Source of the DNA: an uncultured Prevotellaceae bacterium
GTDB taxonomy: Bacteria > Bacteroidota > Bacteroidia > Bacteroidales > Muribaculaceae
Direction of reading: 5' to 3'
DNA: 40,123 nt
NCBI GenBank assembly: GCA_900322135.1
Contig: ONYP01000028.1
Coordinates: 1-40,123, forward strand
The notes under the pieces are model-generated. The model was not told the origin of the DNA, did not search any database, and was given only the letters and a program-made list of their open reading frames with translations. Each line of letters begins with the position of its first letter. Position 1 is the first letter of the stretch. This document shows, one piece after another, positions 10,328-38,116 of this stretch. The translations under genes were made by a program, and so were the position numbers.

Positions 10328-13300
10328 ATGAAGAAGCTATTTCTGCTGCTGATAGCCATTTGTGCTATCTCTCTGGGCATGAGTGCCCAACAAGTAGTGA
10401 GGGGACAAGTGACCGACGCCAACGGTGAGCCGCTGATTGGTGCCACGGTACAGCCCATTGGCGGAGGAAACGGCGCGGCCACCGACATCAACGGTGAGTT
10501 CTCGCTGAGTCTTCCCTACAATGTGAAGACCCTCAAGGTTTCGTATGTGGGTTACAAGACCCAAGAATTACCTGTTCAGCCCAACATGGCCATTACCCTG
10601 ACCGATAATGGTACTGTTCTGGACGATGTGATGGTAGTTGCCTACGGTACTGCTAAGAAGACATCGTATACCGGTTCGGCTGAGGCTGTGTCCAACAAGA
10701 AACTGGAGTTGCGTCCTGTTACCGACGCTACCAAGGCCCTCGAGGGTAACGTAGCCGGTCTGCAGGTAACCAGCGCTTCAGGTCAGCCTGGTTCATCGCC
10801 CAACATTCAGATCCGTGGTTACGGCTCGATCAACGCTTACAGCACCCCGTTGTATGTAGTTGATGGTGCGCCCTTCGATGGCAACCTGAGTTCGATCAAC
10901 CCGTCTGATATCGAGTCGATGACCGTCCTGAAGGATGCAAGTGCAGCCGCTCTGTATGGTGCCCGTGGTGCTAACGGTGTCGTAATGATTACCACCAAGA
11001 AGGGTGTTGAAGGCCGCAGCAATGTGATGTGGCGTTCGACCTTCGGTTGGTCATCGCGTGCTACCAAGCGTTATCAGCATGTTGACCAGAAGGAGTTTGT
11101 ACAGTTGGTTTACGAGGCCCTGCGCAACGAGGCTCTCGACAATGGCAACAGTTGGACCGCTGCCGAGAATATCGCCCGCGCCAGCCTGAGCAGCCAACTC
11201 GGTGGCGAGCAGTACAATCCCTTCAAGAACTACACTTGGGAAACCCTTATTGACCCCGCTACCGGTCAAGTTCGTGCCGATGCCCAGAGCGCATGGGACG
11301 AGGACTGGTATGACAGCATAATCCGCAACAACGCCTTCCGTCACGAGCACCAGTTGCAGGTGACCGGTGGTAGCGAGCATGCACAGTACATGATGTCGTT
11401 GGGTTACCTGAACGAGGACGGTATCCTGAAGACCACCAACTATGAGCGTTACACCGGCCGTGCCAACATCACCAGCCAGATCACTGATTGGTTGGGCGCC
11501 AACATCAATGTTTCGTTGGCTCACGCCATGCAGAACTTCAATGACTATGACGGTACCAGCACCAGTAACCCCTGGTACACCGCACAGTTCATCAACCCGC
11601 TGCTGCCCGTTTACCTGAAGGACATCAACGGTAACACTGTTAATGATGCCGAAGGCAATGTACAGTATGACTGGGGTGAGGCCACTCCTTACGGCACCCG
11701 TCCCGGCTCGATGACCGACTTCTCGTCACTGGGTATGCTGATGCTCGATAAGGCATGGGCTAAGCGCGATGTTGCCGGTCTGCGCACCGGCCTCGTGCTG
11801 GGTAGCGACCTGGCCAAGTACGGCTGGCGTCAGGGCATCAAGTTGGCTGTGAACTTCAGCATGGACTATGTGAACCGCAACAACACCAAATATATGAACT
11901 CTCAGCACGGTAACCAGGCTAGCGCCGGTGGTCTGCTTGAGAAGTACAATCGCCGCACCCAGAGTTACACCTTCAACCAGTTGTTGACTTGGGACCGCAG
12001 TTTCGGTGACCACACCATCGGCCTGTTGCTGGGTCATGAGTGGTATGCCTATGAGTACAGCTATCTGGTAGCTGGCAAGACCAACCTCGTTGACGGTATC
12101 TACGAGTTGCGTCCCGCCACCACCCTGCTGGAGGCTGACTCCTACAGCGACAAGTACCGCATCGACTCCTACCTGGGTCGTATCAACTATAACTTCGCCG
12201 GTCGCTACTTCCTGAGCGGTTCGCTGCGTCAGGACAAGTCGTCGCGCTTCCACCCCGACCACAACAAGGGTACCTTCTGGAGTGTCGGTGCCAACTGGCG
12301 TGTATCAGGTGAGAAGTTCATGCAGAACGTGGGTTGGGTAAACAACCTGTCTGTAAAGGCCAGCTATGGTGAGCAGGGTAACGATATGCTCCAGACCTAC
12401 TACGCTTGGCAGTCACTCTATGACCTGTCTTACAGCAATGCTACCAACATTGGTGCTTTGATTTCTTCGCTCGAGAACCAGAAGGTATCTTGGGAGAAGA
12501 GCCAGAACTTCAATGCAGGCTTTGACGCTATCCTGTTCAACCACCGCTTGCAGTTGAACGTTGACTTCTACAACCGTCTGACCAAGAACATGCTGCTCAA
12601 CCGTCCCATGGCATTGTCGACCGGTTTCACCGGCTTCATGGACAATGTGGGCGACATGCGCAACCGTGGTGTCGAGGGTTCGATCCGCATCACCCCCGTC
12701 CGCACTGCCGACTTTGAGTGGAACATCACCGCAATGGCTACCCACAACAAGAACAAAGTCATCAAGTTGACCGATGAGGCTCCCGAGTTGATCAGCGGCG
12801 TTCGCGTGATCAAGGAAGGTATGCCCATCTACACCTATTATATGCCTAAGAGCGCTGGTGTTGACCCGTCGAACGGTCACTCACTGTACTGGGCTTATGA
12901 GAAGGACGATGACGGTAACATGGTTCCTGGCAGTGAGTACATCACCGATAGCTACTCCCTTGCTAACACCTGCAAGTACTACCAGGGTAGCCGTCAGCCG
13001 GACATCTTTGGTTCTCTTGGAACTGACTTCTCTTGGAAGGGTCTGACCCTGAGCGTGCTGACTACCTATTCACTGGGTGGTAAGGTATTTGACGGCCTGT
13101 ACCAGAGCGATATGAACCTGTGGTACCTGAGCTCGACCTGGAACAAGAACATGATGCGCCGTTGGCAGAAGCCCGGTGACGTGACCGACGTTCCCCGCTC
13201 GACCATCGCCGAGTCGATTGCTAACACCGACCGTTTCCTGATCGATGCTAGTTACTTCGCTATCAAGAACATCACCCTGGCCTATGCTCTGCCCGCATCG

Positions 13301-14023
13301 TGGGTTAACAAGATTGGTATGACCGGTGCCCGTATCTTCGGTTCGGTTGATAACCTGGCCCTGTGGACACACCTCGACGGTATGGATCCCCAGTACAACT
13401 TCTCTGGTGGTACCGACTATGACTACAGCCCCAACAAGACCTACACCGTAGGTATCGAGTTGAACTTCGGTAAGAGCTACGCAGCTGCCGCTCCCGCTGC
13501 CAATGTCAATCTGCTGAACAGCCAGATCAATGACCTGCGCGCTCAGCTGGCCGACGCTCAGGGTGCCGCTGCCGACGCTAACAGCCGTCTTGCTCAGCTG
13601 CAGGGTGACCTGGATGCCGCTAACCGCGCACTGGCCAACTGCCGCAACGACCTGAACGCTGCCAAGAATGTTGCTCCCAAGGTGGTAGACAACAGCAAGC
13701 AGTACATGAACATCCTGGTTCACTTCCCCAAGAGTGGTACCGCTATCACCGCTGACCAGCGTGCCAATGTAGAGCGCGTTGCTGCTTACCTGAAGAGCCA
13801 TCCCGAGGCTACCTGCGTGATCAAGGGTTATGCTTCTCCCGAGGGTAAGGAAGATGTGAACATCAAGCTCGCTAACGGCCGTGCCGCCAGCGTGAAGGAT
13901 ATGCTCGTCAAGAAGTATGGTATCGCAGCCAACCGCATCAACGCCGCTGGCCAGGGTATCAGCAACATGTTTGACGAATTGAGCTGGAACCGTGTTTCGA
14001 TTTGCGAAATCATTGTTAAGTAA
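10328..14023 (+). CDS. SusC/RagA TonB-dependent transporter with coiled-coil and OmpA-like C-terminus (SusC-1)
   Basis: A 1231-residue outer-membrane importer. In order: signal peptide (1-20, before QQVVRGQVTD); a carboxypeptidase-regulatory-like domain (about 22-105); a TonB-box-like stretch (LDDVMVVAYG); the plug with SusC signatures (LYVVDGAPF, DIESMTVLKDASAAALYG, GANGVVMITTKKG); and a 22-strand-type barrel ending near residue 1050 (TYTVGIELNFG). A normal SusC stops there. This one continues with an Ala-rich linker, a heptad-patterned helix (about 1060-1112: LLNSQINDLRAQLADAQG onward, with one Cys) and an OmpA-like domain (about 1122-1231: MNILVHFP, GYASPEG, GRAASVKDML, WNRVSICEI). The extension should be periplasmic and bind or approach peptidoglycan. 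The codon use (GGT, AAG, CTG, CGT) suggests high expression. Its SusD partner follows in 54 bp. The substrate is unknown. Confidence 0.93.
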   Translation: MKKLFLLLIAICAISLGMSAQQVVRGQVTDANGEPLIGATVQPIGGGNGAATDINGEFSLSLPYNVKTLKVSYVGYKTQELPVQPNMAITLTDNGTVLDDVMVVAYGTAKKTSYTGSAEAVSNKKLELRPVTDATKALEGNVAGLQVTSASGQPGSSPNIQIRGYGSINAYSTPLYVVDGAPFDGNLSSINPSDIESMTVLKDASAAALYGARGANGVVMITTKKGVEGRSNVMWRSTFGWSSRATKRYQHVDQKEFVQLVYEALRNEALDNGNSWTAAENIARASLSSQLGGEQYNPFKNYTWETLIDPATGQVRADAQSAWDEDWYDSIIRNNAFRHEHQLQVTGGSEHAQYMMSLGYLNEDGILKTTNYERYTGRANITSQITDWLGANINVSLAHAMQNFNDYDGTSTSNPWYTAQFINPLLPVYLKDINGNTVNDAEGNVQYDWGEATPYGTRPGSMTDFSSLGMLMLDKAWAKRDVAGLRTGLVLGSDLAKYGWRQGIKLAVNFSMDYVNRNNTKYMNSQHGNQASAGGLLEKYNRRTQSYTFNQLLTWDRSFGDHTIGLLLGHEWYAYEYSYLVAGKTNLVDGIYELRPATTLLEADSYSDKYRIDSYLGRINYNFAGRYFLSGSLRQDKSSRFHPDHNKGTFWSVGANWRVSGEKFMQNVGWVNNLSVKASYGEQGNDMLQTYYAWQSLYDLSYSNATNIGALISSLENQKVSWEKSQNFNAGFDAILFNHRLQLNVDFYNRLTKNMLLNRPMALSTGFTGFMDNVGDMRNRGVEGSIRITPVRTADFEWNITAMATHNKNKVIKLTDEAPELISGVRVIKEGMPIYTYYMPKSAGVDPSNGHSLYWAYEKDDDGNMVPGSEYITDSYSLANTCKYYQGSRQPDIFGSLGTDFSWKGLTLSVLTTYSLGGKVFDGLYQSDMNLWYLSSTWNKNMMRRWQKPGDVTDVPRSTIAESIANTDRFLIDASYFAIKNITLAYALPASWVNKIGMTGARIFGSVDNLALWTHLDGMDPQYNFSGGTDYDYSPNKTYTVGIELNFGKSYAAAAPAANVNLLNSQINDLRAQLADAQGAAADANSRLAQLQGDLDAANRALANCRNDLNAAKNVAPKVVDNSKQYMNILVHFPKSGTAITADQRANVERVAAYLKSHPEATCVIKGYASPEGKEDVNIKLANGRAASVKDMLVKKYGIAANRINAAGQGISNMFDELSWNRVSICEIIVK

Positions 14024-14077: not shown

Positions 14078-15625
14078 ATGAAAAAGATATTTAAATATTT
14101 GTTGATTGGACTGTTTGGTGTGGCTTGCCTGACCTCCTGCGACAGCGAATTGCTGGAGACCCAGCCCACCGACTCCATGTCGGGAGCAACCTTCATGAGC
14201 GACGCCACCAAGGCGTTGATCCCCCTGAACGGTATCTACCGCTCGATGTACACCGCCGGCTGGTCGACCACCGGCAATACCCACCAGTGCTTCGGTATCA
14301 GTGCCTATAACCTGATGGCCGAGGTAATGGGTGACGACTTCATCATGGGTGCCCAGGGTTCGGGCTGGTTCTGGTTTGACGCAGCCTATAATGTAAAGGG
14401 CCGTTTCACCTCCAGCTCCTGGCGCAGCTATGACCTGTGGATGGCCTACTACACCTGGATTGCCAATGCCAACTACATCATCGCCGCCGAGGAGACCATG
14501 GAAGGCTCTGAGGCCGATGTAGCCTATGTGATTGGTCAGGCTTATGCTATCCGTGCCTACAGTTACTTCATGCTGGCACAGACCTTTGCCCGTAACTACA
14601 ACTTCAGCAACGATCCTTGTGTGCCCATCTATAATGAGCCCACCATGACCACCACTACTGGTCAGCCTCGTGCAACTGTAAGTGAGGTTTATGCTCAGAT
14701 TGACAGCGACATTGACAAGGCCCTCACGCTGCTGGCCAAGTCGCCCGCTCAGCGTCATCCCAGCCACATGAGCTATGCTGTGGCTCTGGGTATCAAGTCC
14801 CGTATCTGCCTCGTTGAGGAGAAGTGGGATGCTGCCCTCGATGCTGCCAAGAATGCTATTGCCGTCAGTGGCAAGAAGATTCAGACTGTTGATGCCAGCG
14901 CATTTGCTCCCAACAAGGCCAACTTCATCAACTCTGTTGGCCAGGGTAATGTAATGTGGGGTGCTCAGATCGTGAGCGACCAGGCTGGTATGTATGCTTC
15001 GTTGATGACCCACATGAGCGGTACCGCTCCTTACGGTGAGCGTGCTCCCAAGCAGATCTCGGCATGGCTTTACAGCAAGATGAAATCCACCGACACCCGT
15101 CGTGCATGGTGGAATCCTGCTGAGAACTACCTGCAGAAGAAGTTTGAGTTCTCCAACGAGCAGACCTGGGAAGGTGACTACATCTGGATGCGTGTTGAGG
15201 AGATGTACCTCAATGCCGCCGAGGCTGCTTGCCACAAGGGTGACGACGCTACTGCCAAGCAGTACCTGATGGCTCTGATGGAGAAGCGTGATGCTAGTTA
15301 CTCGACCGAGAAGAGTGGTCACGAACTGGCAACTATCACTACCAATGAAACCGGTTCGCTGCTTGAGGAAATCCTCATCCAGCGCCGTATCGAGCTGTGG
15401 GGCGAGGATGGCCGTATCTACACCATCCGCCGCTTGCACCAGGGTTTTGTTCGTCCCGAGTCTTACGGTTGGCCCAGCGGCCTGCTGCTGCTCACCCATA
15501 CTCAGGCCATGCAGGATCCCGCCAGCTACCTGTGGGTACTCACGATTCCTCAGGCCGAGTTTGACGGCAATATCAACATGGATGTTGCTAAGGACCAGAA
15601 CCCCGTTGGTGACTATCCTGAGTAA
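14078..15625 (+). CDS. SusD/RagB-family substrate-binding lipoprotein (SusD-1)
   Basis: A 515-residue lipoprotein forming the extracellular lid of SusC-1. The signal peptide ends in the lipobox LTSC (acylated Cys21), followed by DSE, an acidic surface-export signal typical of Bacteroidetes. SusD-type TPR helices are visible (AYVIGQAYAIRAYSYFMLAQTF; EMYLNAAEAACHKGDDATAKQYL), as is the C-terminal region ILIQRRIELWGEDGRIYTIRR. It is translated from an ATG after an AAGGA-like stretch (14065-14070) 54 bp beyond SusC-1, so it is co-transcribed. No carbohydrate-active enzyme follows, so the ligand cannot be inferred. Confidence 0.93.
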   Translation: MKKIFKYLLIGLFGVACLTSCDSELLETQPTDSMSGATFMSDATKALIPLNGIYRSMYTAGWSTTGNTHQCFGISAYNLMAEVMGDDFIMGAQGSGWFWFDAAYNVKGRFTSSSWRSYDLWMAYYTWIANANYIIAAEETMEGSEADVAYVIGQAYAIRAYSYFMLAQTFARNYNFSNDPCVPIYNEPTMTTTTGQPRATVSEVYAQIDSDIDKALTLLAKSPAQRHPSHMSYAVALGIKSRICLVEEKWDAALDAAKNAIAVSGKKIQTVDASAFAPNKANFINSVGQGNVMWGAQIVSDQAGMYASLMTHMSGTAPYGERAPKQISAWLYSKMKSTDTRRAWWNPAENYLQKKFEFSNEQTWEGDYIWMRVEEMYLNAAEAACHKGDDATAKQYLMALMEKRDASYSTEKSGHELATITTNETGSLLEEILIQRRIELWGEDGRIYTIRRLHQGFVRPESYGWPSGLLLLTHTQAMQDPASYLWVLTIPQAEFDGNINMDVAKDQNPVGDYPE

Positions 15626-22414: not shown

Positions 22415-23455
22415 TTATTTTCCCTCGTTGCTGAGGAGAAAGCGCCGCTTGGGAGCGATGGCGGCGAAGTCTTCCTGTGTGAGCGGGGCGATGCGGTCGA
22501 GAATGCAGGAGAGCCGTTTGGCAATCTTGAACTCTACGGGCTCACTCTCGGGCACTTCCTGCAGCAACTGTGATACGCGCGACTTGATGGCCGAGAATTC
22601 AAACACCATCGAGGTGTTGAACCAGGCATCGGCATGGCTTGCAAAGGGGAGGATCCAGAGGTTCTCGCCGCGCAAGACACCCGGCCACCATTGCAAGGTC
22701 TGCAATGCACTGGCACCACGGCTGTTATAGTCCCTGTAGATGCGGCGCAGCAGTCGGTTGTCATGCTCGTCGAGTCCAGCTTTCTCGCCATAATAGACCG
22801 TAGCCTGGGCGGTGACAAAGAGCCGGAATTTCTGTTCCTCAGGGATGTCGGGCACGAGCAGGGGATTGAGCGCGTGCAGTCCTTCAAGGAAAAGCAGGCT
22901 GTTGCTCTCGAGTTTGAGCGTGTTGCCCTGGTAGGTGCGCTCACCCTTGACATAGTCATAGGTGGGCATCGACACTTGGTCGCCAGCCAGCAGACTGGCC
23001 ACATCGCGTCCCAACTGCTTCAAATCCAGTCCATAGAATGATTCATAGTCGATATTACCATTGGGGTCGAGGGGACGCTTGTCCAGGTTAAGGAAATAGT
23101 TGTCGAGTGAAACGACGCAAGGCTGGATGCCATTGTCACGCAGCATGTGTGTGAGGAATCTCGATGTCGTGGTCTTACCCGAACAGGACGGGCCGGCTAC
23201 CAGAACCATGCGCATGCCTTCCTGGCGGAAACGGCGCGTGATTTCGGTCGTGATGCGCTCCAGGCGTCGGCTGTGCTGCACCTCGTCCTCGGCGATAAGG
23301 TCAGGAGCAAGACCTTTGGAAATCACCTCGTTAAAGAGAGCGATGCCGTTCAGTCCCTGTGACTCTAGTCGCCTGATGTCACCGCAGAACTCCTCCAGTG
23401 ACATTTTTTTGGTGCCTGCATTCTGTTGCTCCAGGTTTTCTAAGTAGTTAGTCAT
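22415..23455 (-). CDS. Uridine-kinase-like nucleoside kinase, short form
   Basis: A 346-residue P-loop kinase of the phosphoribulokinase/uridine kinase family, expected to phosphorylate a nucleoside such as uridine or cytidine with ATP or GTP. Walker A is GPSCSGKT (88-95). The substrate-binding LDNYFLN starts at 117, and DYESFYGLDL, MPTYDYVKG and FLEGLHALNPLL follow in the usual order. It resembles the C-terminal two thirds of the neighbouring kinase, including the segment before the P-loop, but lacks the TGS and ThrRS-like N-terminal domains. It is probably a tandem paralogue. A terminator lies between the two, so this gene probably has its own promoter. The substrate is not certain. Confidence 0.85.
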   Translation of the reverse strand: MTNYLENLEQQNAGTKKMSLEEFCGDIRRLESQGLNGIALFNEVISKGLAPDLIAEDEVQHSRRLERITTEITRRFRQEGMRMVLVAGPSCSGKTTTSRFLTHMLRDNGIQPCVVSLDNYFLNLDKRPLDPNGNIDYESFYGLDLKQLGRDVASLLAGDQVSMPTYDYVKGERTYQGNTLKLESNSLLFLEGLHALNPLLVPDIPEEQKFRLFVTAQATVYYGEKAGLDEHDNRLLRRIYRDYNSRGASALQTLQWWPGVLRGENLWILPFASHADAWFNTSMVFEFSAIKSRVSQLLQEVPESEPVEFKIAKRLSCILDRIAPLTQEDFAAIAPKRRFLLSNEGK

Positions 23456-23503
23456 TGTTGTTATGTGTTGAGTAATAAAATTCTGTTTTTATTATAAAAG
23501 AAT

Positions 23504-23534
23504 TGGGCCCTATTGCACACTGCAATAGGGCCCA
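23504..23534 (-). terminator. Terminator between the two kinase genes
   Basis: A perfect 14-bp stem TGGGCCCTATTGCA / TGCAATAGGGCCCA with a 3-nt loop begins 10 bp after the stop of the upstream (broken) kinase gene, with a T-rich stretch after it on the minus strand. Confidence 0.85.
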
Positions 23535-23543
23535 GTTGATTCG

Positions 23544-26425: not shown

Positions 26426-28141
26426 TTACCAACCGGGGTTCTGGCCAATCTCGGGATTCAGGTTGCGCTGATCGTCGGGAATGGGGAGCAGGTTGTACTT
26501 GGGATCCCATTTGCGGGGAGCACCGTTGTTGGAGCAGTTGATGTAACCGTCGGCATCAACATTGATTTCACCGAGGCTGATGGCATCAAATCCAGCAACA
26601 TAGGCACCACGGCACAGGTTGGGATTGTTGTCGGTGTCGAGCAGCGAGAGCTGGTTCCAGCGCAGCAGTGACCAGTAACGGTCGTTCATGCAGTACATCA
26701 TCTCGACGCGGCGCTCACGGCGAACCTCCCAAATGATGGGGCTAACACCCATGTTGTTGGCGGGATCGGCCTCAACACTGGTCATCAGGTGGGGCATGCT
26801 CACGCGGTCACGCAGCAGGTTGATGGACTTGTCGAGGTCGCTCTGGGTGATGTTACCCAGCTCGGCGCAAGCCTCGGCATAGTTCAGCAGGATCTCGGCA
26901 TACCAGAAGATGGGGGCGTCGGTCCAGTTACCATAGGTGCTCTGACGGTTGGTGTTGTCGATCAGGTTGGTATCAAACAGGAACACACCATAGCCCGTCG
27001 AAGCGGTCGACTGGGCACCACCGAAGCGGGCGTAACCACAACCGGGGAATTGGAGGATCTTGTCCACCTGGGCGCTCAGGCGCGGGTCGCGGTTGGCCAG
27101 CACATTGCTGATGTCGATGTGGGGAGCCTCGCCCAGACCCGAGTTGTCGTCGAGGACAACCACGGTACCGTGGTCAGTCTTGTTCAGGCTGGTGGTAGCC
27201 AGGGGCTTACCATCCTTGAACAGGTAGCTGTCGAAGGCGTCCTTGGTCATACCATTAACCTGTGTAGAACCGCAGGTGTAGTCGATAGTACCATGGGCAA
27301 AGGTGCTCTGGATGTACTTCTTGTACATGATCATCTCGGGGTTACCGGCCAGGTCAAGCGAGTTGAAGTTGGCCTGGTAGTTGCTGTTCAGGCTGAACTT
27401 GCCCGAGTTCATGATTTCCAAGCAAGCGTTCTTGGCCTCGTTGAGGTAACGGGCGGCACGCTCGTTGTTCTTGGTTACATACTTGCTGTAGTCGCCCTCA
27501 TAGAGGCAAACCTCGGCCTTCATGGCCAGGGCAACCCACTTGTTGAACGCGGTGCGGGAGTTGTCGTTGTCGGTGATGTTGGCGCAAGCGAAGTTCAAGT
27601 CCTCAAGCACCTTGTCCATCACATCGTTGCGGGGCTGACGGGGACCGTACAGGATCTCGGTGTCACTGGGATCGAGTTCCTTTTCCACCCAGTAGCAGTC
27701 ACCATAGTTGCGGACAACCTTGTAGTGCTGCCATGCACGGTACAGGCGGCCGATGCCCAGCCAGTTGGCCTTCTTGGCATCGCTCATAGAAGCGACATTG
27801 GGAACAGCAGCGATAAGGGTGTTGGCACGACGAATCTCCACATAGGGGGTGTTCCAAGCACCAGCGCTACCGGGAACATTCATATAGGTCCACTTGGTGA
27901 TACCGGTCGAGGCCTGGTCGTCGTTCAGCGTGTTGAAGTAGTAGTCACCGCTACCGCTACCGTACCCCGTGAAGGTGTTGTAGAAGTAGTTGGCGAACAA
28001 CTGAACATTGGTCTCACTGGTAAAATAGTTGTCCTTGGTAAACTGATCATAGGGTTCGGTGTCGAGGATATCATCGCACGAAACCAACGAGAGCATGAAA
28101 ACACCCAGGCCAGCCAGTATAATTGATTTGAAAAGTTTCAT
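26426..28141 (-). CDS. SusD/RagB-family lipoprotein (SusD-2)
   Basis: A 571-residue surface lipoprotein partner of SusC-2. The signal peptide MKLFKSIILAGLGVFMLSLV is followed by SC (acylated Cys22) and DDILDTEP, an acidic export signal. RagB/SusD helices are visible: LGIGRLYRAWQHYKVVRNYGD, and a C-terminal YAEILLNYAEACAELG, then IIWEVRRERRVEMM. It ends in the standard SusD tail (YNLLPIPDDQRNLNPEIGQNPGW). It lies 56 bp after SusC-2. The first 27 bases of the gene are identical to SusD-3, although the mature proteins belong to different SusD subfamilies. The ligand is unknown. Confidence 0.94.
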   Translation of the reverse strand: MKLFKSIILAGLGVFMLSLVSCDDILDTEPYDQFTKDNYFTSETNVQLFANYFYNTFTGYGSGSGDYYFNTLNDDQASTGITKWTYMNVPGSAGAWNTPYVEIRRANTLIAAVPNVASMSDAKKANWLGIGRLYRAWQHYKVVRNYGDCYWVEKELDPSDTEILYGPRQPRNDVMDKVLEDLNFACANITDNDNSRTAFNKWVALAMKAEVCLYEGDYSKYVTKNNERAARYLNEAKNACLEIMNSGKFSLNSNYQANFNSLDLAGNPEMIMYKKYIQSTFAHGTIDYTCGSTQVNGMTKDAFDSYLFKDGKPLATTSLNKTDHGTVVVLDDNSGLGEAPHIDISNVLANRDPRLSAQVDKILQFPGCGYARFGGAQSTASTGYGVFLFDTNLIDNTNRQSTYGNWTDAPIFWYAEILLNYAEACAELGNITQSDLDKSINLLRDRVSMPHLMTSVEADPANNMGVSPIIWEVRRERRVEMMYCMNDRYWSLLRWNQLSLLDTDNNPNLCRGAYVAGFDAISLGEINVDADGYINCSNNGAPRKWDPKYNLLPIPDDQRNLNPEIGQNPGW

Positions 28142-28353
28142 AATTATATCTGTTTTTATTAGTTTCTAGTTTTTAGTTTCTAGTCCCTAGTTGATAATTA
28201 CTTCACGATGATCTCACAGATGGAAACGCGGTTCCAGCTCAGTTCATCAAACATGTTGCTGATGCCCTGGCCCTTGGCGTTGATGCGCTTGGCATCGATA
28301 CCATACTTCTTGACGAGCATATCCTTCACGCTGGCGGCACGGCCGTTAGCGAG
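28102..28353. repeat. Left arm of the 250-bp inverted repeat around the divergent SusC pair
   Basis: This segment covers the end of the SusC-2 OmpA module, the SusC-SusD spacer and the SusD-2 signal-peptide codons. It matches 36027-36275 in inverted orientation. It contains a 58-bp perfect block (28296-28353) and a 57-bp perfect block (28115-28171). The spacer differs by one 3-bp indel and one substitution. Confidence 0.85.
28160..28194. repeat. Period-7 array in the SusC-2/SusD-2 spacer
   Basis: Five heptamers: TAGTTTC, TAGTTTT, TAGTTTC, TAGTCCC, TAGTTGA. It starts 3 bp from the SusC-2 stop codon and is nearly the same as the array after SusC-3. Confidence 0.75.
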
Positions 28354-31300
28354 GTCGATGTTGTGGTCGGCAGGACCGTCCTTGGAGGCATAACCGTTGA
28401 TGGTGCAGGTAGCCTCGGGATGGCTCTTCATGTAAGCGGCGATGCGCTCCACATTGGGCTGCTGGTCGGTACCGACGGCGGTCTTGTTCACGGGGAAGTG
28501 AACGAGGATGGTCATGTACTGCAGCGACTTGTCGATCATGTTGCCCTTGCTCTTCTGGCAGTCGTTCAGGTCTCGCTGGAGCTGAGCGTTGCGGTTGTTG
28601 GCAGCGTTGAGCTGGTTCTGCAGTTCGGCCAGACGGTTGTTGTAGTTGTTCTCGGCATCGGCGAGCTGTGCGCGCAGGTCATTGATCTGAGCGTTCAGGG
28701 CGCTATTGTCAACATTGCCGGCAACGGCGGTGCGGCTGTTGCTGCCGAAGGTCAGCTGCAGACCCACACTGTAGGTGCGCATGATGGGATCGGTACGGCC
28801 CCAAACGGCGTTACCATAGCTACCCACACCGGTGTTGATCTCGGGATCGAGACCGGTACCGTTGCTGTGGTTGATGATGTCGAACAGGTTGTCGGTCGAA
28901 GCGTAGATGCGCAGTTTCTCGATGAGAGCCTTGCGGGTCAAGTGCTGAGGCAGCGTGTAACCCACGGTGATGTTCTTCATGCGCAGGTAGCTCATGTTCA
29001 CCAGATACTTGGTCTGGGGATAGAAGTTGAACTTACCCAGATCGAGGATGTCGCTCGAAGCGGTACCACGGCCAGCGCCACCAGCCCACATGCGGGGGAA
29101 CTCGGCGCCCTGGTCGATAATGCCGTTGGCATAGTCGGCCTCGGTAACATAGTCAGTCTGGTTGGTGTAGATAGCGTCAGCACCACGCATGAACGGCATG
29201 ACGAATGCAGACTGGGTCCACATGTCGCGCTTGCCCACGCCCTGCAGGTAGAAGTCAACATCGAAGCCCTTCCAGGCAGCGCCCAGACGCAGCGAGTACT
29301 GATAGCGCGGGGTGAAGTTACCGATGCGCTTCAGGTCACCGTGGTCCTCGGGAGTACCCTTACCCCAGTCGATGACGCCGTCACCGTTCAGGTCCTTGAA
29401 CTTGATGTCACCAGGGCCGTAAACGAAGCCGTTGGACTGCAGCTTGGTCTGGCTAGCAACACCGTTGGCATAGGTGCCGTCGGCGTTGAAGTCGTTGAAG
29501 TCGAAGTAGCGGTCGGTCTCGAAGCCCCAGATCTCGCCATACTCCTTGCCGGAGTAGTTGGTGTTGATCATGTTGTTGCTGTCCCAAGTGGTGACCTTGG
29601 TCTTGTAGTCATTGACGATGGCAGTAACATAGAAGTCAACAGCACCGATGCGGTTGCGGTAGTCAACAGCGAGTTCCCAACCACGGGTGCGCATCGAACC
29701 TGCGTTCTCCCATGCGGCGCTAGCACCCAGTACTGAAGGCATAGCCTTACCGGGAGCGAGCATGTCCTTGGTGTCACGCTGATACCAGTCGGCGGTCACA
29801 TTCAGGTGGCCGTTGAAGAAGGCCAGGTCAAGACCGACATTGGTGGTGTGGATCTTCTCCCAAGTCAGAGACTCGGAAACCAGTTTGGGAGCCGAGAAGT
29901 AGTCATACTTGGAGTTGCCGTTGCCGATCCAGTTCACAGCGTTGGTCTGCTTGGCCATGGTCTCGAGGAACATGTTGGAACCGATTTCCTGGTTACCGAT
30001 CACACCATAAGATGCACGGATCTTGGCATTGCTGATGGCGTCCTTGATGGGCTCCCAGAACTTCATCTCGCTGATGCGCCAGCCGATAGATGCCGAGGGG
30101 AAGAATGCCCACTGATCCTTCTTGGGGAACTTGCTCGAACCGTCGTAGCGGCCGTTCAACTCGAGCAGGAAGATGCCCTTGTAGTCATAGTTGATGCGGC
30201 CGAAGAAGCCTGCCGAACCCCAGTGGGTGTGGGCGTGGCTGTAGCTGTAGTCCTCGTTGGTGAGTGCCAGCTCAGGCATGTTGAGGTCCTGAATGCCGTG
30301 ACGCTCGTAGTAGAGGTACTCATACTCATACTTGTCCACATTGGCACCCAACTTCAGGTTGAAGTTGTGGGCGTCGTTGATGGAGCGGTGCCAGTCGAAG
30401 TAACCGTTAGCCACATGGTTGTAACGGTTGCTGCGGTCGGTCTCGATGAAGGTCGAGCCGGTGATGTCCACGGGACCCTGGGGGTTCAGACCCCAAGTGT
30501 TGTAAACAACCGAGGGGAGACCGACGCCCTTGTAGCGGGTGTTACGCTGGATAAAGGTGTAGTCGGCATTGAAGCTCAGACCGTAACCGAAGTCAATCTT
30601 GGCGAATGCGCCCAGACTCAGGTTGTTCATCTTGTAGTAGCAATCACCACCGGTGTTGCGGCCACCGATCATGGTGCGGGCGTCATACTGCTTGCCGTCG
30701 TTAGGATCTACAAAGTAGCCGTAGGGGCCGAAGAACGAACCCCAGCGCCACAGGTACTGGTAGGTACCGGCACCGCGCTTGTAGGGGGTCTCATAGGTAC
30801 GATCAACATAGCTGATACGGGTGCCGACCTCCAACCAGTCGGTAGCACGAACCGACACATTGGAAGTAACATTGTACTTGCGGAACTTGTCGGGGTTGAA
30901 GTTCATCAGCGACTGCTTCTGGTTGTAACCAACCGAGGTGTAGAAGTTGATGCGGCCCGAGTTACCGGTTACACTCAGGGTGTGGCTCTGGCTGGGAGCG
31001 TGGTTGTTGAACATGATGCCGGGCACATCCCAGTTGGCATAGTAACCGTTCTCATCATAGTCGTCACCATAGACCATCTGACGATATTTGTCCTTGATGT
31101 CGCCATGCTTCTTGATCCAGTTGTTGATACCGTTCTGGAAGGCCTCGCTGTCCATGTACATACCGAAGAGCTCCGATGCAACGCCCATGCGGTGGTTCAC
31201 ATCGTTCAGTGCGCTCACCTGGGTGGGAACATTGGGATAGTCGGGCAAGGTGGTTGCCTGGCTCCAAGCGAAGTTGTTGTTGTAACTTACCCTCACATTG

Positions 31301-32040
31301 TCCTTGACATGGGCGGTCCTGGTGGTAATCAGAACAACGCCAAAGGCTGCACGGGTACCGTAGATCGAGGTCGAAGCAGCATCCTTCAAGACGCTGATGT
31401 TCTCGATGTCGGCGGGGTTCAGGTCACCCAGCGACTCAACGGGCACACCGTCAACGATGTACAACGGTGTGGAAACACCGCTGTTGGACAGGGTACCGAT
31501 ACCACGGATGACGATTGACGGGTCGGCGCTGATGTCACCGTTGGCGTTCAAAATCGTCAAGCCGGGGACGGTTCCCTGCAGCGACTTGCGGACATCGGTC
31601 TCGGACTTGGAACCGAGCACCTTGTCCACATCCACGGTGCTCACAGCACCGGTCAGGTTGGCCTTGCGCTGCGTACCGTAACCCACGACAACGACCTCGT
31701 CGAGCTTGGCGTTATCCTCGGCAAGGATGACGCGCATGCCGTTGCTGGCACGCAACTCCTGGGTTTTGTAGCCGATGAAGGAAACCTGCAACTTGGCGTT
31801 AGGGCTTGCCTTGAACGAGAAGTTACCGTCCACATCGGTTGTTGTGCCGCGGGTCGTTCCTACTTCGACAATGCTGGCGCCGATGACGGGTTCACCCTGT
31901 TCATCGACAACGCGGCCTGTCACAATGCTGGTGGCGGAGTTAGCCGACACCTGGGGCGCGGGTGCTGCCTGGGCCTGACTACTATAGCCAGTGCCGCAGA
32001 GCATTAACAGTGCGCCCAAAAGAGCTAAATGTCTTTTCAT
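28198..32040 (-). CDS. SusC/RagA TonB-dependent transporter with coiled-coil and OmpA-like C-terminus (SusC-2)
   Basis: A 1280-residue outer-membrane importer. The ATG at 32040 is preferred to the in-frame GTG at 32046 because it gives MKRHLALLGALLMLCG, a normal signal peptide. A carboxypeptidase-regulatory-like domain follows (TGRVVDEQGEPVIGASIVEV), then a TonB-box region (LDEVVVVGYGTQRKANLTGA), a plug with LYIVDGVPVESLGDLNPAD and TSIYGTRAAFGVVLITTR, and a barrel ending near TYSVGLQLTFG. Beyond it are a coiled coil (about 1108-1160, SALNAQINDLRAQLADAE onward, one Cys) and an OmpA-like domain (about 1170-1280; MTILVHFP, GYASKDG, GRAASVKDML, WNRVSICEI). The SusC class is the standard RagA type and pairs with SusD-2. 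It shares its promoter region with SusC-3. Confidence 0.93.
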   Translation of the reverse strand: MKRHLALLGALLMLCGTGYSSQAQAAPAPQVSANSATSIVTGRVVDEQGEPVIGASIVEVGTTRGTTTDVDGNFSFKASPNAKLQVSFIGYKTQELRASNGMRVILAEDNAKLDEVVVVGYGTQRKANLTGAVSTVDVDKVLGSKSETDVRKSLQGTVPGLTILNANGDISADPSIVIRGIGTLSNSGVSTPLYIVDGVPVESLGDLNPADIENISVLKDAASTSIYGTRAAFGVVLITTRTAHVKDNVRVSYNNNFAWSQATTLPDYPNVPTQVSALNDVNHRMGVASELFGMYMDSEAFQNGINNWIKKHGDIKDKYRQMVYGDDYDENGYYANWDVPGIMFNNHAPSQSHTLSVTGNSGRINFYTSVGYNQKQSLMNFNPDKFRKYNVTSNVSVRATDWLEVGTRISYVDRTYETPYKRGAGTYQYLWRWGSFFGPYGYFVDPNDGKQYDARTMIGGRNTGGDCYYKMNNLSLGAFAKIDFGYGLSFNADYTFIQRNTRYKGVGLPSVVYNTWGLNPQGPVDITGSTFIETDRSNRYNHVANGYFDWHRSINDAHNFNLKLGANVDKYEYEYLYYERHGIQDLNMPELALTNEDYSYSHAHTHWGSAGFFGRINYDYKGIFLLELNGRYDGSSKFPKKDQWAFFPSASIGWRISEMKFWEPIKDAISNAKIRASYGVIGNQEIGSNMFLETMAKQTNAVNWIGNGNSKYDYFSAPKLVSESLTWEKIHTTNVGLDLAFFNGHLNVTADWYQRDTKDMLAPGKAMPSVLGASAAWENAGSMRTRGWELAVDYRNRIGAVDFYVTAIVNDYKTKVTTWDSNNMINTNYSGKEYGEIWGFETDRYFDFNDFNADGTYANGVASQTKLQSNGFVYGPGDIKFKDLNGDGVIDWGKGTPEDHGDLKRIGNFTPRYQYSLRLGAAWKGFDVDFYLQGVGKRDMWTQSAFVMPFMRGADAIYTNQTDYVTEADYANGIIDQGAEFPRMWAGGAGRGTASSDILDLGKFNFYPQTKYLVNMSYLRMKNITVGYTLPQHLTRKALIEKLRIYASTDNLFDIINHSNGTGLDPEINTGVGSYGNAVWGRTDPIMRTYSVGLQLTFGSNSRTAVAGNVDNSALNAQINDLRAQLADAENNYNNRLAELQNQLNAANNRNAQLQRDLNDCQKSKGNMIDKSLQYMTILVHFPVNKTAVGTDQQPNVERIAAYMKSHPEATCTINGYASKDGPADHNIDLANGRAASVKDMLVKKYGIDAKRINAKGQGISNMFDELSWNRVSICEIIVK

Positions 32041-32145
32041 AAGCACGATTGATAAATTGTTAATATTGTTAGTTAATTCAGTTTATACTTGACTTGTTTT
32101 GCCGCAATGCGCATGTAACGCATCTTATAATTTTTTAACAAAGTG

Positions 32146-32329: not shown

Positions 32330-32469
32330 CCTACTTGATTGTCGATTTTCGGCATCTTTAGGCAATGATATCTAAGAACCATGTGAACCATTGAATGTTT
32401 AGAACTTAGAGACAAAAATTATGATAGTCATTTAATTTCAAATTTTTAAAAATTTAAAAGTAAGTGCGT

Positions 32470-35400
32470 ATGAAAAAACAATTAGCACTGTTGGCCGCGC
32501 TGGCAATTGCCTGCGGAGCACCGGCTGGGATGACATCGCTTCCCAGCACGGGTTTCACAGCCCAGGCCCAGGCCAACAAAGTCTCTGGCGTCATACGCGA
32601 CGCCCAAGGTGAGCCCCTCATCGGCGCGACCGTCAAGGTCAAGGGTACCAACCGCGGTACCGCTACCGATGTAGACGGCAGGTATTCAATCGTCGCCAAC
32701 CGTGGTGATGTGCTCGTTGTGTCCTACATTGGCAGCAAACCCATGGAGGTTACCGTGGGCAGCGGTGCCATGGACATCAACATGCAGGCCAATGACCAAG
32801 TCCTCGACGAGGTTGTTGTAACCGCACTCGGTATCCGCAAGGACAAGAAGTCGCTGGGTTATGCAGTCGACGACCTGAAGGCTGAGGAGCTGATGCGCAA
32901 CAAGAGCGCTAACGCCATCAACTCGCTGTCAGGTAAGATTGCTGGTGTGAACATCACCCAGTCGTCGGGTGCCGCCGGTTCTGGTGCCCAGATCATCCTG
33001 CGTGGTGGTACCTCGGTTGCTGAGAATCGCGACAGCCAGCCGCTGTTCGTTGTGGATGGTGTCATCTACGACAACTCGGCAGGTATTGTGGGTAACTCGG
33101 CATTCGACGGTATGATGAACAGCGCCACCACCTCTTCCAACCGTGTGATGGATATCAACCCCGAGGATATCGAGAGCATGTCGATTCTGAAAGGCCCGGC
33201 CGCATCGGCGCTTTACGGTTCGCGTGCTGCCAACGGTGTTGTGATGATCACCACCAAGAAAGGTAAGGAAGGCCACACCGAGATCAGCTTCTCGGGTAAG
33301 ATGATTGCCTCGATGGTGAAGGACCTGCCCAAGACCCAGAAGGAGTTTGTTCGCGGTTACATGACCGACATGTACAACGACGCTGGCCAGTGGACCGGTC
33401 TTGAGATCAAGGACGACAGTTACAACTCATGGGGTCCCAAGGCTAATGTTCCCTTCTATGACAACCTGAAGAACTTCTTCGAGACGGGTATCATCTGGGA
33501 CACCAACTTGAGCGTTAGCGGTGGTACCAAGAACAACAACTTCTTCCTGAGCGGTTCATTCTACGATCAGGACGGTATCGTTCCCACCACGGGCTACACC
33601 AAGACGACCTTCCGCTTCAACGGTGAGCAGAAGGTGGGCAAGTTCACCTTCGGCGCCAACGCCGCTTACAGTGATGCCCGCACCGTGAAGACCCTGACTG
33701 GTGCCGCTCTGTACGGTTCCAGTGGTACTGGTGCCCTCTATGCAGCCTACAACTGGGCTCCCAGCGATGACATGCGCCACTATCTCAACGAGGATGGCAC
33801 TCGCTATCGCATGTTCGGTGACCAGTTCCAGCCCTGGGACGAGCGCGACAACCCCTACTGGATTGTCAACAAGAACAAGATGACCGATGACACCGAGCGT
33901 GGGATCTGTTCGACTGGTGGTGGCTGAGCTACCGCATGGGTGTCGACAGTTACACCACCCAGAGCCACAACGAGATCGCTCCTGGCGGTGCCATCAAGCA
34001 GATTTGGCAGCGCGGTATGTTGAGCGACAACATGTACAAGTATCGCTACCTGAGCAACAACCTGATGTCGAACTGGAACAAGCAGTTCGGTGACTTTAAC
34101 ATCAACTTGATGTTGGGTGGTTCTACTGACTACACCAAGACCCGTCGCGACTATGAGTCGGCTTGGAACTTTGGTGTTGCCAACTTCTTCAGTTATGAGA
34201 ATGCCAGCGATGCCGACAAGAAGTTCTCGCATGGCAGCAGCAAGAAGCGCATGGTATCGGCCTTCGGTGAGTTCCGCATCGACTGGCGCAACGCCATCTT
34301 CCTGACCGTTACCGGCCGTAACGACTGGGATTCGACCCTGCCCAAGGACAACTGGAGTTACTTCTATCCCAGCGTGAGCGGCGCTATCGCCTTCACCGAG
34401 CTCTTCCGTGAGAACCTGCCCGAATGGTTCTCGTTCGGTAAGATCCGTGCCAGCTGGGCCGAGGTAGGTAAGGGTACCAACCCCTATGTTACCAACACTT
34501 ATCTGTGGCCTGTAGGCACCTATCTGGAGGGTATGGTTGGTCTGGGTAACACCTGGACCCGCGGTAACCCCTATCTGAAGCCCGAGCGCACCCGTTCGAC
34601 CGAGGTTGGTCTGGAGTTGCGCTTCATCCAGAACCGCTTGAAATTTGATGTTGCTTACTATACCAACAACTCGTTTGACCTGATTCTGCAACCCCGTGGT
34701 CCCCAGTCTACCGGTTACATCTTCTGCTCGGTTAACTCTGGTGATGTTTACAACAAGGGTCTTGAGATCAGCCTGAGTGGTACTCCCATCCAGCATGAGA
34801 ACTTCATCTGGGAAACCGGTATCAATGTCTATGGCAACCGTGGCACCGTGGGTGACCTGGTTAACGGTATCGATGTTATGTACCTGACCGATGTACAGTA
34901 TGGTGGCGCCAAGGCTGCCAGCTACAACCATGGCAACTTCATGGGTATCGACGGTACCAAGTGGAACCGCAACAGCGAGGGTAAGCTCATCCTTGACAAG
35001 AACGGCTTCCCCACCACCGACAGCAAGGCCTATGAGGTCGGCGACCGTGAGGCCAAGTGGCAGGGTGGTTTCAACAACACCTTCACTTTCTTCAAGAACT
35101 GGACCTTCAACATGTTGTGGGAGTTCCGCTGGGGCGGCGATGTCTTCAACGGCACCAAGTATGCCATGTCGATGAGCGGCGTGAGCGAGCTCAGCGGCGA
35201 CTGGCGCAACCAGACCCTGACTATCGAGGGTGTTGATGGCGACGGCAACCCCGTTTCCAACACCTGGGAGGCTGGTAAGAACTATGTCTTCAACGGCAAC
35301 GAGACCAGTGGCTACAACATCATCAAGAGCTACTATACCGGTGCTTACAACTACGAGGTTCGCAATTGGATCACCTATGTGAAGAGCCTGCGTCTGCGCA

Positions 35401-36182
35401 CCATCTCGCTGACCTATGATGTTCCCCGCAGCTTCCTGGCCCGCACCAAGTACATCAAGCGTGCTGCCATCACGGCTGCTGCCAACAATCTGGTACTGTT
35501 CACCAACTACGACGGTGATCCCGAGGTAGCTGCTTCGGGTGCCGGTATCGGTGGTTCGTCTTCGGTAGGTTTCGACTACTGCGGTGTTCCCGCTACCCGT
35601 TCCTACTCTGTAGGTATTAACCTCGTCTTCGGTACTGACGATGCAGCACCTGCTCGCGTGAACACTGCTGAGCTCGACCTGCTCAACGGTCAGATCAACG
35701 ACCTGCGCAACCAGCTTGCTAACGCTAATAACGCCAACAACGCCCGCATTGCACAGCTCGAGAACGACTTGGCTGCTGCCAACCGCGCCTTGGCTAACTG
35801 CAAGAGCGACCTGAATGCTGCCAAGAATGTTGCTCCCAAGGTGGTAGACAACAGCAAGCAGTACATGAATGTGCTCGTTCACTTCCCCGTGAACAAGACC
35901 GGCGTTACCGCTGACCAGCGTCCCAATGTTGAGCGCATTGCCGCTTACATGAAGAGCCATCCCGAGGCAACCTGTGAGATCAAGGGTTACGCTTCGCCCG
36001 AGGGTAACCAGGAGAACAACATCAAGCTCGCTAACGGCCGTGCCGCCAGCGTGAAGGATATGCTCGTCAAGAAGTATGGTATCGCTGCCAACCGCATCAA
36101 GGCTGAAGGCCAGGGTATCAGCAACATGTTTGACGAACTGAGTTGGAACCGTGTTTCGATTTGCGAAATCATCGTGAAGTAA
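32470..36182 (+). pseudogene. SusC/RagA transporter with coiled-coil and OmpA-like C-terminus (SusC-3), frameshifted
   Basis: The ATG at 32470 (not the upstream GTG at 32464) gives the signal peptide MKKQLALLAALAIACGAPAG. A regulatory-like domain (VSGVIRDAQGEPLIGATVKV), a TonB-box region (LDEVVVTALGIRKDKKSLGY, the subtype that usually pairs with SusD-like_2 proteins) and a plug (FVVDGVIYD; ALYGSRAANGVVMITTKKG) follow. The frame is lost after MTDDTER: it reads GICSTGGG and stops at 33927. The second frame resumes at about 33903 (DLFDWWWLSYRMG) and runs through the barrel, a coiled coil (LLNGQINDLRNQLANANN onward) and the OmpA-like domain (GYASPEG) to 36182. About 9-11 codons expected between TER and DLFDW are absent, with 3n+1 bases missing, so this is a small deletion rather than a single-base slip. 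It may be real decay or an assembly fault. Confidence 0.88.
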
Positions 36183-36275
36183 TTAACTAGGGACTAGAAA
36201 CTAAGAACTAGAAACTAATAAAAACAGATATAATTATGAAACTTTTCAAATCAATTATACTGTGTGGCCTGGGTG
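36027..36275. repeat. Right arm of the 250-bp inverted repeat around the divergent SusC pair
   Basis: Counterpart of 28102-28353. Perfect blocks at 36027-36084 (58 bp, OmpA module) and 36206-36262 (57 bp, spacer plus the first 27 bases of SusD-3). The region between the arms holds both complete SusC transmembrane parts. Confidence 0.85.
36185..36219. repeat. Period-7 array in the SusC-3/SusD-3 spacer
   Basis: Five heptamers: AACTAGG, GACTAGA, AACTAAG, AACTAGA, AACTAAT, beginning 2 bp after the SusC-3 stop codon. Confidence 0.75.
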
Positions 36276-38116
36276 CTGCGATGTTGTCGCTGACCTCTTG
36301 TAACGACTGGCTTGATGTGAATGTTGACCCCGATAGCCCTTCGGCCGAGTCCACGACCTATGACCAGCGTTTGGCGCACATTCAATTCTATACCAATAGT
36401 GGTCTGCAGTTCGGTGCATGGCGTACCACTATGGCCATGGGTGACTGGACCCGTAACAACGGTGGCGGTAACTACTGGCATGTGTCCTATTGGTATCCCG
36501 TTGACGGTCAGGTGACCACGGTTTATCAGTGGTGGTTCGTTGGTGCTTATGCCAATGTGCCTGATATGATCAAGAAGGCTGAAGAGGCCGAGAACTGGCA
36601 GTTTGCCGGTGCCGGCTATCTGATTAAGGCCTACGGCTTTATGGCCATGACCGACCTCTATGGTGAGATGCCTTACACCCAGGCAGCCGCCGAGCCCGCT
36701 ACTCCCGAGTATGACACCGGTAAGACGATCTATCTGGGTTGCTTGGAGACCATCGACAAGGCCATTGAGTGCCTCGAGAAGGGTCAGAGTCAGGATCCCA
36801 GCCTGCCCACGCTGGCAGCCGGTGACTGGTGGAACAAAGGTGACCTGAACAAGTGGATCAAACTCGCATATCTGCTTAAGGCCCGCTGGATCAACAAGTT
36901 GAACAAGAAGGGTGCCGGTAGTTACAAGGATGGTAAGTATGATGCCGACGAAATCCTGCGCTGCCTTGACAAGGCCATGCAGAGCAATGCCGACAACACC
37001 ATCGTCAACCACACCGACGACAACGGTGCAACCCACGATAACCTCGGTTGGGATGAGCCCGTTGACTACTCGCCCCTGTTCTCGGTTAGCGGTATGAACT
37101 CCGGTTACATGGCCACCAAGATGCTCTATGACAACCTGACCAACTTTGCTGGTAAGGGCGTTGAGGATCCCCGTGCTGACCACATCCTGCCCTGGGCTTA
37201 CAGCCCCAACAGGAGTGAGAATGGTATCGATGCCAATGGCGTGAAGTGGAATGGTCACTGGCGCCGCACGCTCGGCGTTGACATGTCCAGTGAGATCAAC
37301 AGCCAGGGTGGCCCCCTGCGCGCTATGTTCAACACCGAGACCAACAGTTGGTACATTAACAGTGCCAATGAGGCTCGTCTGGGTGATACCGTCTATATCG
37401 AGGGTACCAGCGACTGTAAGGGTTACTTTGCTAATCCCAGCATCCTGTACTGCCGCGCCGGTAGCGGTAAGTTTGAGTCGGCTGAGTCAGGTACATTCTA
37501 CACCCGCGTAAGTTCGCCCACCTACATCGGTACCTATGCCGAGTGCTGCTTCATCAAGGCCGAGACCCTCTTCAAGAAGGGTGACAAGGCTGGTGCTTAC
37601 GCTGCCTACAAGGCTGGTGTGAAGGCTAGTTGCGAGTTGATGAACGAGAAACTGAGGACATGGATTGCCGAGGATGCTAGTCTCGCCGACTGCCCGTCGT
37701 TCACCCCGATGACTGCCGAGGCTATCGACAACTTCGTGAACAACGGTATCGGCACCCAGGCTGAGTTGACCCTGGGTCACATCCTCATGCAGAAGCGTAT
37801 CGCCCTCATGTTCTCCTATGAGATCTGGAACGATATGCGCCGCTATGACTTCGATCCCAACATCTTCTTCGGTTGGTCGATCCCCGCTTACCACTACAAG
37901 GTGGCTGCCGCTATGCTGGCCATCCCCGAGGGCAAGCAGTATCGTCGCTGGCGTCAGTGCTCACACGAGTACAACTACAACAGCAAGAACCTGCAGGCCA
38001 TCGGTGCTCAGGTTCCCGGCGCCCGCATGACCGACGGTGAGGGCAAGGAAGTGATGTGGAACCGTCAGGATGACGCTTGGACCATCCCCGTTTGGTGGGA
38101 CAGCGACCAGGAGTAA
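36236..38116 (+). CDS. SusD-like_2-family lipoprotein (SusD-3)
   Basis: A 626-residue surface lipoprotein. The signal peptide is almost the same as that of SusD-2 (MKLFKSIILCGLGAAMLSLT, then SC, Cys22), but the mature protein is of the SusD-like_2 type: NDWLDVNVDPDSPS at the start, AGYLIKAYGFMAMTDLYGEMPYTQA, ILPWAYSPNRS, and a C-terminal MQKRIALMFSYEIWNDMRRYDF with IPEGKQYRRWRQC. This subfamily goes with SusC proteins carrying the TALGIRKDKK motif, which matches SusC-3, so the pairing looks original despite the shared signal peptide. If SusC-3 is truly broken, this lipoprotein has lost its transporter. A strong terminator follows. Confidence 0.92.
   Translation: MKLFKSIILCGLGAAMLSLTSCNDWLDVNVDPDSPSAESTTYDQRLAHIQFYTNSGLQFGAWRTTMAMGDWTRNNGGGNYWHVSYWYPVDGQVTTVYQWWFVGAYANVPDMIKKAEEAENWQFAGAGYLIKAYGFMAMTDLYGEMPYTQAAAEPATPEYDTGKTIYLGCLETIDKAIECLEKGQSQDPSLPTLAAGDWWNKGDLNKWIKLAYLLKARWINKLNKKGAGSYKDGKYDADEILRCLDKAMQSNADNTIVNHTDDNGATHDNLGWDEPVDYSPLFSVSGMNSGYMATKMLYDNLTNFAGKGVEDPRADHILPWAYSPNRSENGIDANGVKWNGHWRRTLGVDMSSEINSQGGPLRAMFNTETNSWYINSANEARLGDTVYIEGTSDCKGYFANPSILYCRAGSGKFESAESGTFYTRVSSPTYIGTYAECCFIKAETLFKKGDKAGAYAAYKAGVKASCELMNEKLRTWIAEDASLADCPSFTPMTAEAIDNFVNNGIGTQAELTLGHILMQKRIALMFSYEIWNDMRRYDFDPNIFFGWSIPAYHYKVAAAMLAIPEGKQYRRWRQCSHEYNYNSKNLQAIGAQVPGARMTDGEGKEVMWNRQDDAWTIPVWWDSDQE

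Follow-up and report, generated by a model that had tools for sequence, protein, structure and literature searches.

We analysed a window of 40,123 nucleotides, positions 1 to 40,123 of contig ONYP01000028.1, from the draft genome of an uncultured member of the Muribaculaceae. It contains three SusC/SusD pairs, and each of the three SusC importers continues beyond its last barrel strand into a C-terminal tail made of a coiled coil and an OmpA-like domain. All three SusCs have CarbopepD_reg_2 at the N-terminus and a TonB plug (Pfam), and a SusD-family gene adjoins each. SusC1 (residues 23-1047) and SusC2 matched the SusC/RagA family TIGR04056 at 811.8 and 814.7 bits, respectively (cut-off 368.25); the two pieces of SusC3 scored 352 and 255 bits, each under the cut-off because the gene is split. 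In SusC1 the tail begins directly after residue 1047, where the family match stops. The OmpA domain, PF00691, was found in the tails of SusC1, SusC2 and SusC3 at 47.7, 46.7 and 48.6 bits (gathering cut-off 27.2).

An earlier reading of the DNA letters without database searches (the sequence-only reading) had described three SusCs with a coiled coil and an OmpA-like tail. The profile scores (46.7-48.6 bits), the heptad-patterned helix and the position of the tail directly after the last strand confirmed that description. Its placement of SusC1 at 10328-14023 also stood, and the gene is an intact open reading frame (ORF). The gene that it put at 28198-32040 is real but lies on the minus strand, and 32040 is an ATG two codons after the GTG start. 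The third gene, placed at 32470-36182, is not a single ORF but is split by a frameshift and a short loss at ≈ 33.89-33.93 kb (window 33890-33936). A relative of SusC3, L108, is a single ORF that matches the two pieces at 96 and 95% identity, with ≈ 20 residues between them unmatched. SusC3 may truly be a pseudogene here, or the break may be an error of the draft assembly.

Structure prediction of the SusC1 tail by AlphaFold2 yielded the OmpA fold that the sequence-only reading had expected: a linker, a long helix and an alpha/beta OmpA domain, with a mean predicted local distance difference test score (pLDDT) of 80.7. The single helix covers tail residues 9-66 (residues 11-60 average 90-96 by block), and by eye its hydrophobic residues, Ala and Cys included, alternate 3 and 4 apart at tail residues 15-64. 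Foldseek placed the peptidoglycan-binding domains of OprF and Acinetobacter baumannii OmpA at the top (E 3e-10 to the OprF domain). The full-length SusC1 model, of low overall confidence, has the last strand ending near residue 1050, then the helix and then the OmpA domain; its closest PDB folds were RagAB, the levan utilisome and other SusCs. SusC proteins have both termini in the periplasm. Since the tail follows the last strand, where untailed homologues stop, we infer from this established topology that the tail would most naturally lie in the periplasm.

Features of the three SusC/SusD loci, in window positions
Feature	Position	Strand	Description
SusC1	10328..14023	+	One intact ORF, 1231 amino acids; CarbopepD_reg_2, plug and barrel at 10328-13471, then tail
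SusC1 tail	13472..14020	+	183 amino acids: linker, coiled coil ≈ 13496-13669, OmpA-like domain (Pfam match 13724-13966)
SusD partner of SusC1	14078..15625	+	PF14322, PF07980
Putative lipoprotein, 270 amino acids	15650..16462	+	Follows the SusCD-1 pair; matches nothing in Pfam or NCBIfam
SusD partner of SusC2	26426..28141	-	PF07980, PF14322; leader similar to SusD3 leader
SusC2 with tail	28198..32046	-	1282 amino acids from GTG; tail 28201-28749, OmpA Pfam match ≈ 28255-28497
SusC3, 5' piece	32464..33927	+	Reading frame breaks near 33.9 kb
SusC3, 3' piece	33936..36182	+	Rest of barrel and tail (35631-36179; OmpA match 35883-36128)
SusD partner of SusC3, SusD-like_2 type	36236..38116	+	PF12771, PF12741

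A search of the genus with the tail gave matches in 95 of 101 genomes. The best scores left a gap between 38 genomes at 213 bits or more (SusC-type tail) and 57 at 171 bits or less (standalone-type OmpA), a division made by score from the complete genome table and the matches listed. The named relatives are metagenome-assembled genomes (MAGs), several titled with ruminant organs and labelled by their depositors Muribaculaceae, Prevotellaceae, Bacteroidales or Porphyromonadaceae; 73 loci from related MAGs were kept for analysis. Among the matches listed, one genome (G016) has four tails within ≈ 30 kb. Chimeric contigs or misannotation could be suspected from the window's genome itself, a draft of 145 contigs that is 82.55% complete and has a frameshifted SusC3. 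We rejected an artefact as extremely improbable: the fusion recurs in 38/101 genomes of the genus and in separately deposited MAGs, and its tails vary by type and species. The sequence-only reading had named such an artefact as a possible refutation; in practice it is excluded.

In the window's genome, a count of SusC genes with and without the tail, as suggested by the sequence-only reading, gave three tailed among ≈ 12 SusC loci; the remainder lack the tail or, in two cases, are cut by contig ends. PF00691 occurs at nine places in this genome, eight of them above the cut-off; three are the SusC tails and one is the standalone OmpA, C75. The taxonomic spread that the sequence-only reading had raised was found within the genus but not in the genomes of other genera searched. 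Of a family search of 397 genomes (matches listed down to ≈ E 1e-41), the 36 genomes from other genera with the most matches were chosen; no fusion was seen in them, and the longest open frame among the listed matches there was 526 amino acids. Across 393 genomes of the order (E ≤ 1e-30) and 395 of the phylum (E ≤ 1e-12), with mostly eight first-look candidates scored per genome, the fusion appeared in the window's genome only. These searches would miss a SusC joined to an unrelated OmpA domain. As far as searched, the tailed SusC is a clade-restricted SusC variant. In titles and the starts of abstracts, with most subscription journals and preprints outside the scope, we found no description of a SusC or TonB receptor with an OmpA domain.

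The closest relative of the tail is in the cell's own OmpA. The Bacteroidales major OmpA (≈ 380-440 amino acids) shares with the tail the coil and the OmpA domain, the GYAS...RA motif and, nearly throughout, WNRVSIC. In OmpA these parts sit on a small N-terminal domain, which we take to be an eight-stranded barrel, whereas in the window they sit on SusC. C75 (locus L061) is 414 amino acids long and, over its coil and domain, shares 63% identity with the SusC1 tail. A tree was built from 107 tails (68 from SusC, 39 from standalone OmpA; 147 columns, many forks unresolved), leaving out the standalone locus L240 and seven tails in short ORFs; in it, 68/68 SusC tails formed one clade (support 99/96). 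Its sister group was the OmpA of 17 tail-bearing genomes and of the fusionless genome G073, and both together (100/97) were nested within the OmpA of the genus. Because the SusC tails form one clade nested there, beside the OmpA of the tail-bearers, we conclude that the tail derives from the 3' part of ompA in the lineage of this clade itself. Within the resolution of the tree, it was probably captured once. Judged from sequence, the tail thus comes from the 3' part of the gene for the OmpA of the cell itself and has moved between SusC lineages, which goes beyond the sequence-only reading. The suggestion made there that the tail takes over the role of OmpA found no support: among the matches listed, standalone-type OmpA is also present in 36/38 tail-bearing genomes (exceptions G029 and G060).

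Tailed SusCs comprise four main barrel types, C1 to C3 (represented by SusC1, SusC2 and SusC3) and C4, which is not in the window. A second tailed C2 group (L130, L139, L140 and L141), ≈ 46-51% identical to SusC2 and with SusD starts that diverge after the leader, is probably a fifth tailed lineage. The tail is present on at least four divergent SusC lineages. Within the window, the SusC1 tail shares 66% identity with the tail of SusC2 and 78% with that of SusC3, compared with ≈ 22-40% over the aligned parts of the barrels of the SusC types; the fusion is therefore far beyond chance.

Full-length untailed homologues of all four types occur in fusionless genomes of the same genus. They are 63-68% identical to C1 (plus remoter ones), 64-79% to C3 and 67-71% to C4; for C2, a main group is 70-73% identical, and others, at ≈ 50-53%, lie closer to the second C2 group in the barrel tree. 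The C-termini that were read lie within the last strand, as VNF or LNF in C1, DF, DL, DI or TF in C2, NLTF in C3 (12/12) and SVTF in C4 (7/7), in agreement with the statement of the sequence-only reading that SusCs normally end there. The tailed SusCs thus resemble known SusC/RagA importers (TIGR04056; RagA, BT1763) in CarbopepD_reg_2, plug, barrel and adjacent SusD, but add ≈ 183 amino acids where untailed homologues stop.

In the barrel tree, the starred branches require six changes of the tail trait. A single clade of tailed barrels was rejected with an approximately unbiased test value (p-AU) of 1.1e-28 (16 tailed versus 37 untailed rows). The test set excluded L106_TC4, a row that had represented the neighbouring C2 ORF when the barrels were first placed in a tree, and also ten untailed rows on long branches. 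One clade of tails on barrels that do not form one means that the tail passed from one SusC gene to another, and the rejection of one tailed barrel clade makes a single capture followed by spread as a cassette probable. One ancient tailed SusC with diverged descendants was rejected as a candidate, because the tails nest in the OmpA of the genus and a single tailed barrel clade is rejected. One locus, L093, has a C2 barrel carrying a tail of the C1/C3/C4 type. C3 and C4 tails of the same contig group together in L096 and L113, and within a group of three in L100 and L110.

The DNA around the tails points to exchanged tracts that extend beyond them. SusC1 and SusC3 have the same 60 bases over one stretch of the tail, which SusC2 matches at 97% identity, and the similarity between the C2 and C3 genes of the window extends past the stop codon (0.89 over 110 bases) into the SusD leader. 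The motif KSIIL is present in the SusD leader of 18/18 tailed C2 and 11/11 called tailed C4 loci, compared with 0/17 called untailed C2 and 0/7 untailed C4. For C3 it is present in 9/12 tailed and 2/10 called untailed loci, and two further untailed ones have a close variant of it. Tailed loci without a row in this comparison were four typed as C4, one C2 and one C1, and no leader was called for two tailed C4, three untailed C2, one untailed C3 and two untailed C1 loci. For C1, no exchange of SusD leaders was seen in the leader comparison. In the 110 bases after the SusC stop, tailed C2/C4 pairs had a median identity of 0.80 (0.55-0.95, n = 7), compared with 0.61 (0.44-0.69, n = 6) for untailed pairs. 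Among C2/C3 pairs, for which shuffling gave a mean of 0.563 and a highest value of 0.66, the identity was 0.89 in the window pair and 0.73 in one further pair. The leaders suggest that the cassette passed from C3 to C2 and C4 along with the spacer and SusD leader codons, and spacer identity supports this for C2/C4 but, in median, not for C2/C3; in two lineages, the tail apparently travelled with the SusD leader.

To what extent the tail is under selection can be judged from orthologues. For C1 (n = 15), amino acid identity was 0.957 in the OmpA domain and 0.884 in the barrel, at 0.776 versus 0.736 identity of fourfold-degenerate sites; for C2 (n = 11), the values were 0.926 versus 0.895 and 0.779 versus 0.762. 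This pattern shows purifying selection on the OmpA domain of SusC tails. Since it varies less than the barrel while fourfold-site identity is much alike in the two, the domain is probably functional on SusC.

The same sites give some support to the idea that the tail is a hitch-hiker, or an aid to expression or biogenesis (for example, through mRNA stability or recognition by chaperones or the barrel assembly machinery, BAM), which involves no docking and is spread and homogenised by recombination between neighbouring genes. The OmpA domains of the three window tails share 71-80% of their fourfold sites (25/35, 33/41 and 29/38), a level that resembles between-species orthologues (0.78); barrel paralogues share 47-66%, and the coils do not reach the level of the orthologues (7/19, 13/27 and 6/15). 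These figures suggest that the OmpA domain part underwent conversion or spread recently. A mere passenger would not be expected to show stronger protein constraint than the barrel at similar synonymous divergence, or to be kept on four or five lineages in many species, and we regard this explanation as quite unlikely.

We favour the reading, with a probability of roughly 0.55, that a ruminant-gut clade of the Muribaculaceae joined the 3' part of its major ompA gene (coiled coil and C-terminal domain) to one SusC, and that recombination then carried the cassette into three or more further SusC genes, which often lie close together. The tail would act as a periplasmic docking module that places SusCD importers where the tail of OmpA sits, at the cell wall and/or in an OmpA coiled-coil assembly. 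We infer that importers would likely gain by being kept from drifting or from shedding in vesicles, and by being held within reach of TonB through the wall. Fusion would set a 1:1 ratio and confine the effect to selected importers.

In A. baumannii OmpA, diaminopimelate is bound by the pair Asp271/Arg286 (PMC5974059). The Asp is replaced by Ser in 111/111 of our sequences (72 SusC tails and 39 standalone OmpAs), and the Arg is kept. The swap was also seen in alignments to 5u1h, 3td3 and 2kgw; by eye, five other OmpA-domain proteins of the window's genome retain the Asp. The OmpAs of other families that were read also carry Ser at this position, so the replacement predates the fusion. Two positions beyond the Ser, these motifs usually have an acidic residue, and our guess is that it might substitute for the Asp. 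Mooring of the tail to peptidoglycan is plausible from the predicted fold; wall binding of this class of domain is unproven because of the Ser in 111/111.

The replaced Asp also suits the main rival explanation, namely co-assembly without wall binding: the coil would form mixed oligomers of the tailed SusCs with one another and with OmpA, and the OmpA domain would serve protein contacts only. The heptad coil of the SusC tail has a similar stretch in OmpA, and similar tails are retained on very different barrels. A Porphyromonas gingivalis OmpA is described as a predicted heterotrimer (PMC5300881), and the reference list there includes a 2005 paper titled on the trimer. It is the OmpA domain, however, and not the coil that is most conserved. 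The coil spans differ as well, at 65 residues in 18/19 C1 tails, 62 in most other measured tails (14 of 72 tails were not measurable) and 54-58 in the OmpA of tail-bearing genomes, and one common coil is therefore not favoured. We consider co-assembly alone unlikely.

Besides the Ser replacement, several observations weigh against the docking-module reading. The coil is conserved little or no better than the barrel (0.900 versus 0.884 in C1; 0.814 versus 0.895 in C2), and tailed SusCs are a minority in the window's genome. The full-length SusC1 model is poor (mean pLDDT 63.9), and we therefore claim no geometry. KSIIL is absent from the SusD leader in 3/12 tailed C3 loci. The C2/C3 spacer median is 0.60 for tailed (n = 5) versus 0.65 for untailed (n = 8) pairs; as the tailed spacers are not above the untailed in median, the sequence evidence for a tract beyond the tail is that of the C2/C4 spacers and the SusD leaders. 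An untailed C3, L246 (G063), nests among tailed C3 barrels, so that tail loss may be tolerated. Either L246 lost its tail or its barrel was transferred.

An extension of the docking-module reading, which we put forward tentatively, is that a transferable docking cassette cut from ompA sits on different SusCD importers and builds, together with OmpA, one mixed wall-facing array, recombination keeping the tags matched. If true, importers for different nutrients would carry a common address tag.

Among known systems, the closest in kind may be RmpM of Neisseria, an OmpA-domain protein. A passage of PMC8497027, citing Prinz and Tommassen 2000, reports that it forms complexes with TonB-dependent transporters and that its mutation lowers growth on lactoferrin iron. 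As in the tailed SusCs, an OmpA-fold domain is associated with TonB-dependent transporters, and the RmpM structure 1r1m was among the fold matches of the tail. RmpM is a separate protein acting in trans, whereas the SusC tail is covalently fused in cis, to SusC importers; the tail may be a fused counterpart that works like RmpM rather than being RmpM. TpgA (NCBIfam NF047726), the partner of trimeric autotransporter adhesins, is likewise an OmpA-domain protein named for its association with another outer-membrane protein, but it is a separate protein with another client, and the SusC1 match to its profile is weak (37.8 bits, far under the cut-off of 350).

The finding bears on the way in which TonB gets across the wall to importers of the outer membrane and on whether these importers are fixed in position. 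Within one genus, and for four or five lineages, SusC barrels that have the OmpA tail can be set beside homologues that lack it. This amounts to a natural with/without experiment, so that what tethering does to mobility, to loss in vesicles, to clustering and to uptake is directly testable. It also means that bacterial outer-membrane proteins swap a C-terminal module between distantly related barrels.

Elsewhere in the window, two adjacent kinase-like genes lie on the minus strand at 22415-25186. The one at 22415-23455 has a phosphoribulokinase/uridine kinase domain; the similar gene upstream of it appears by eye to be split (24218-25186 and 23544-24221). The minus strand at 364-3222 encodes a metallopeptidase of the M6 family (PF05547), of secreted type, which has a dockerin-type match (PF00404) at its C-terminus.

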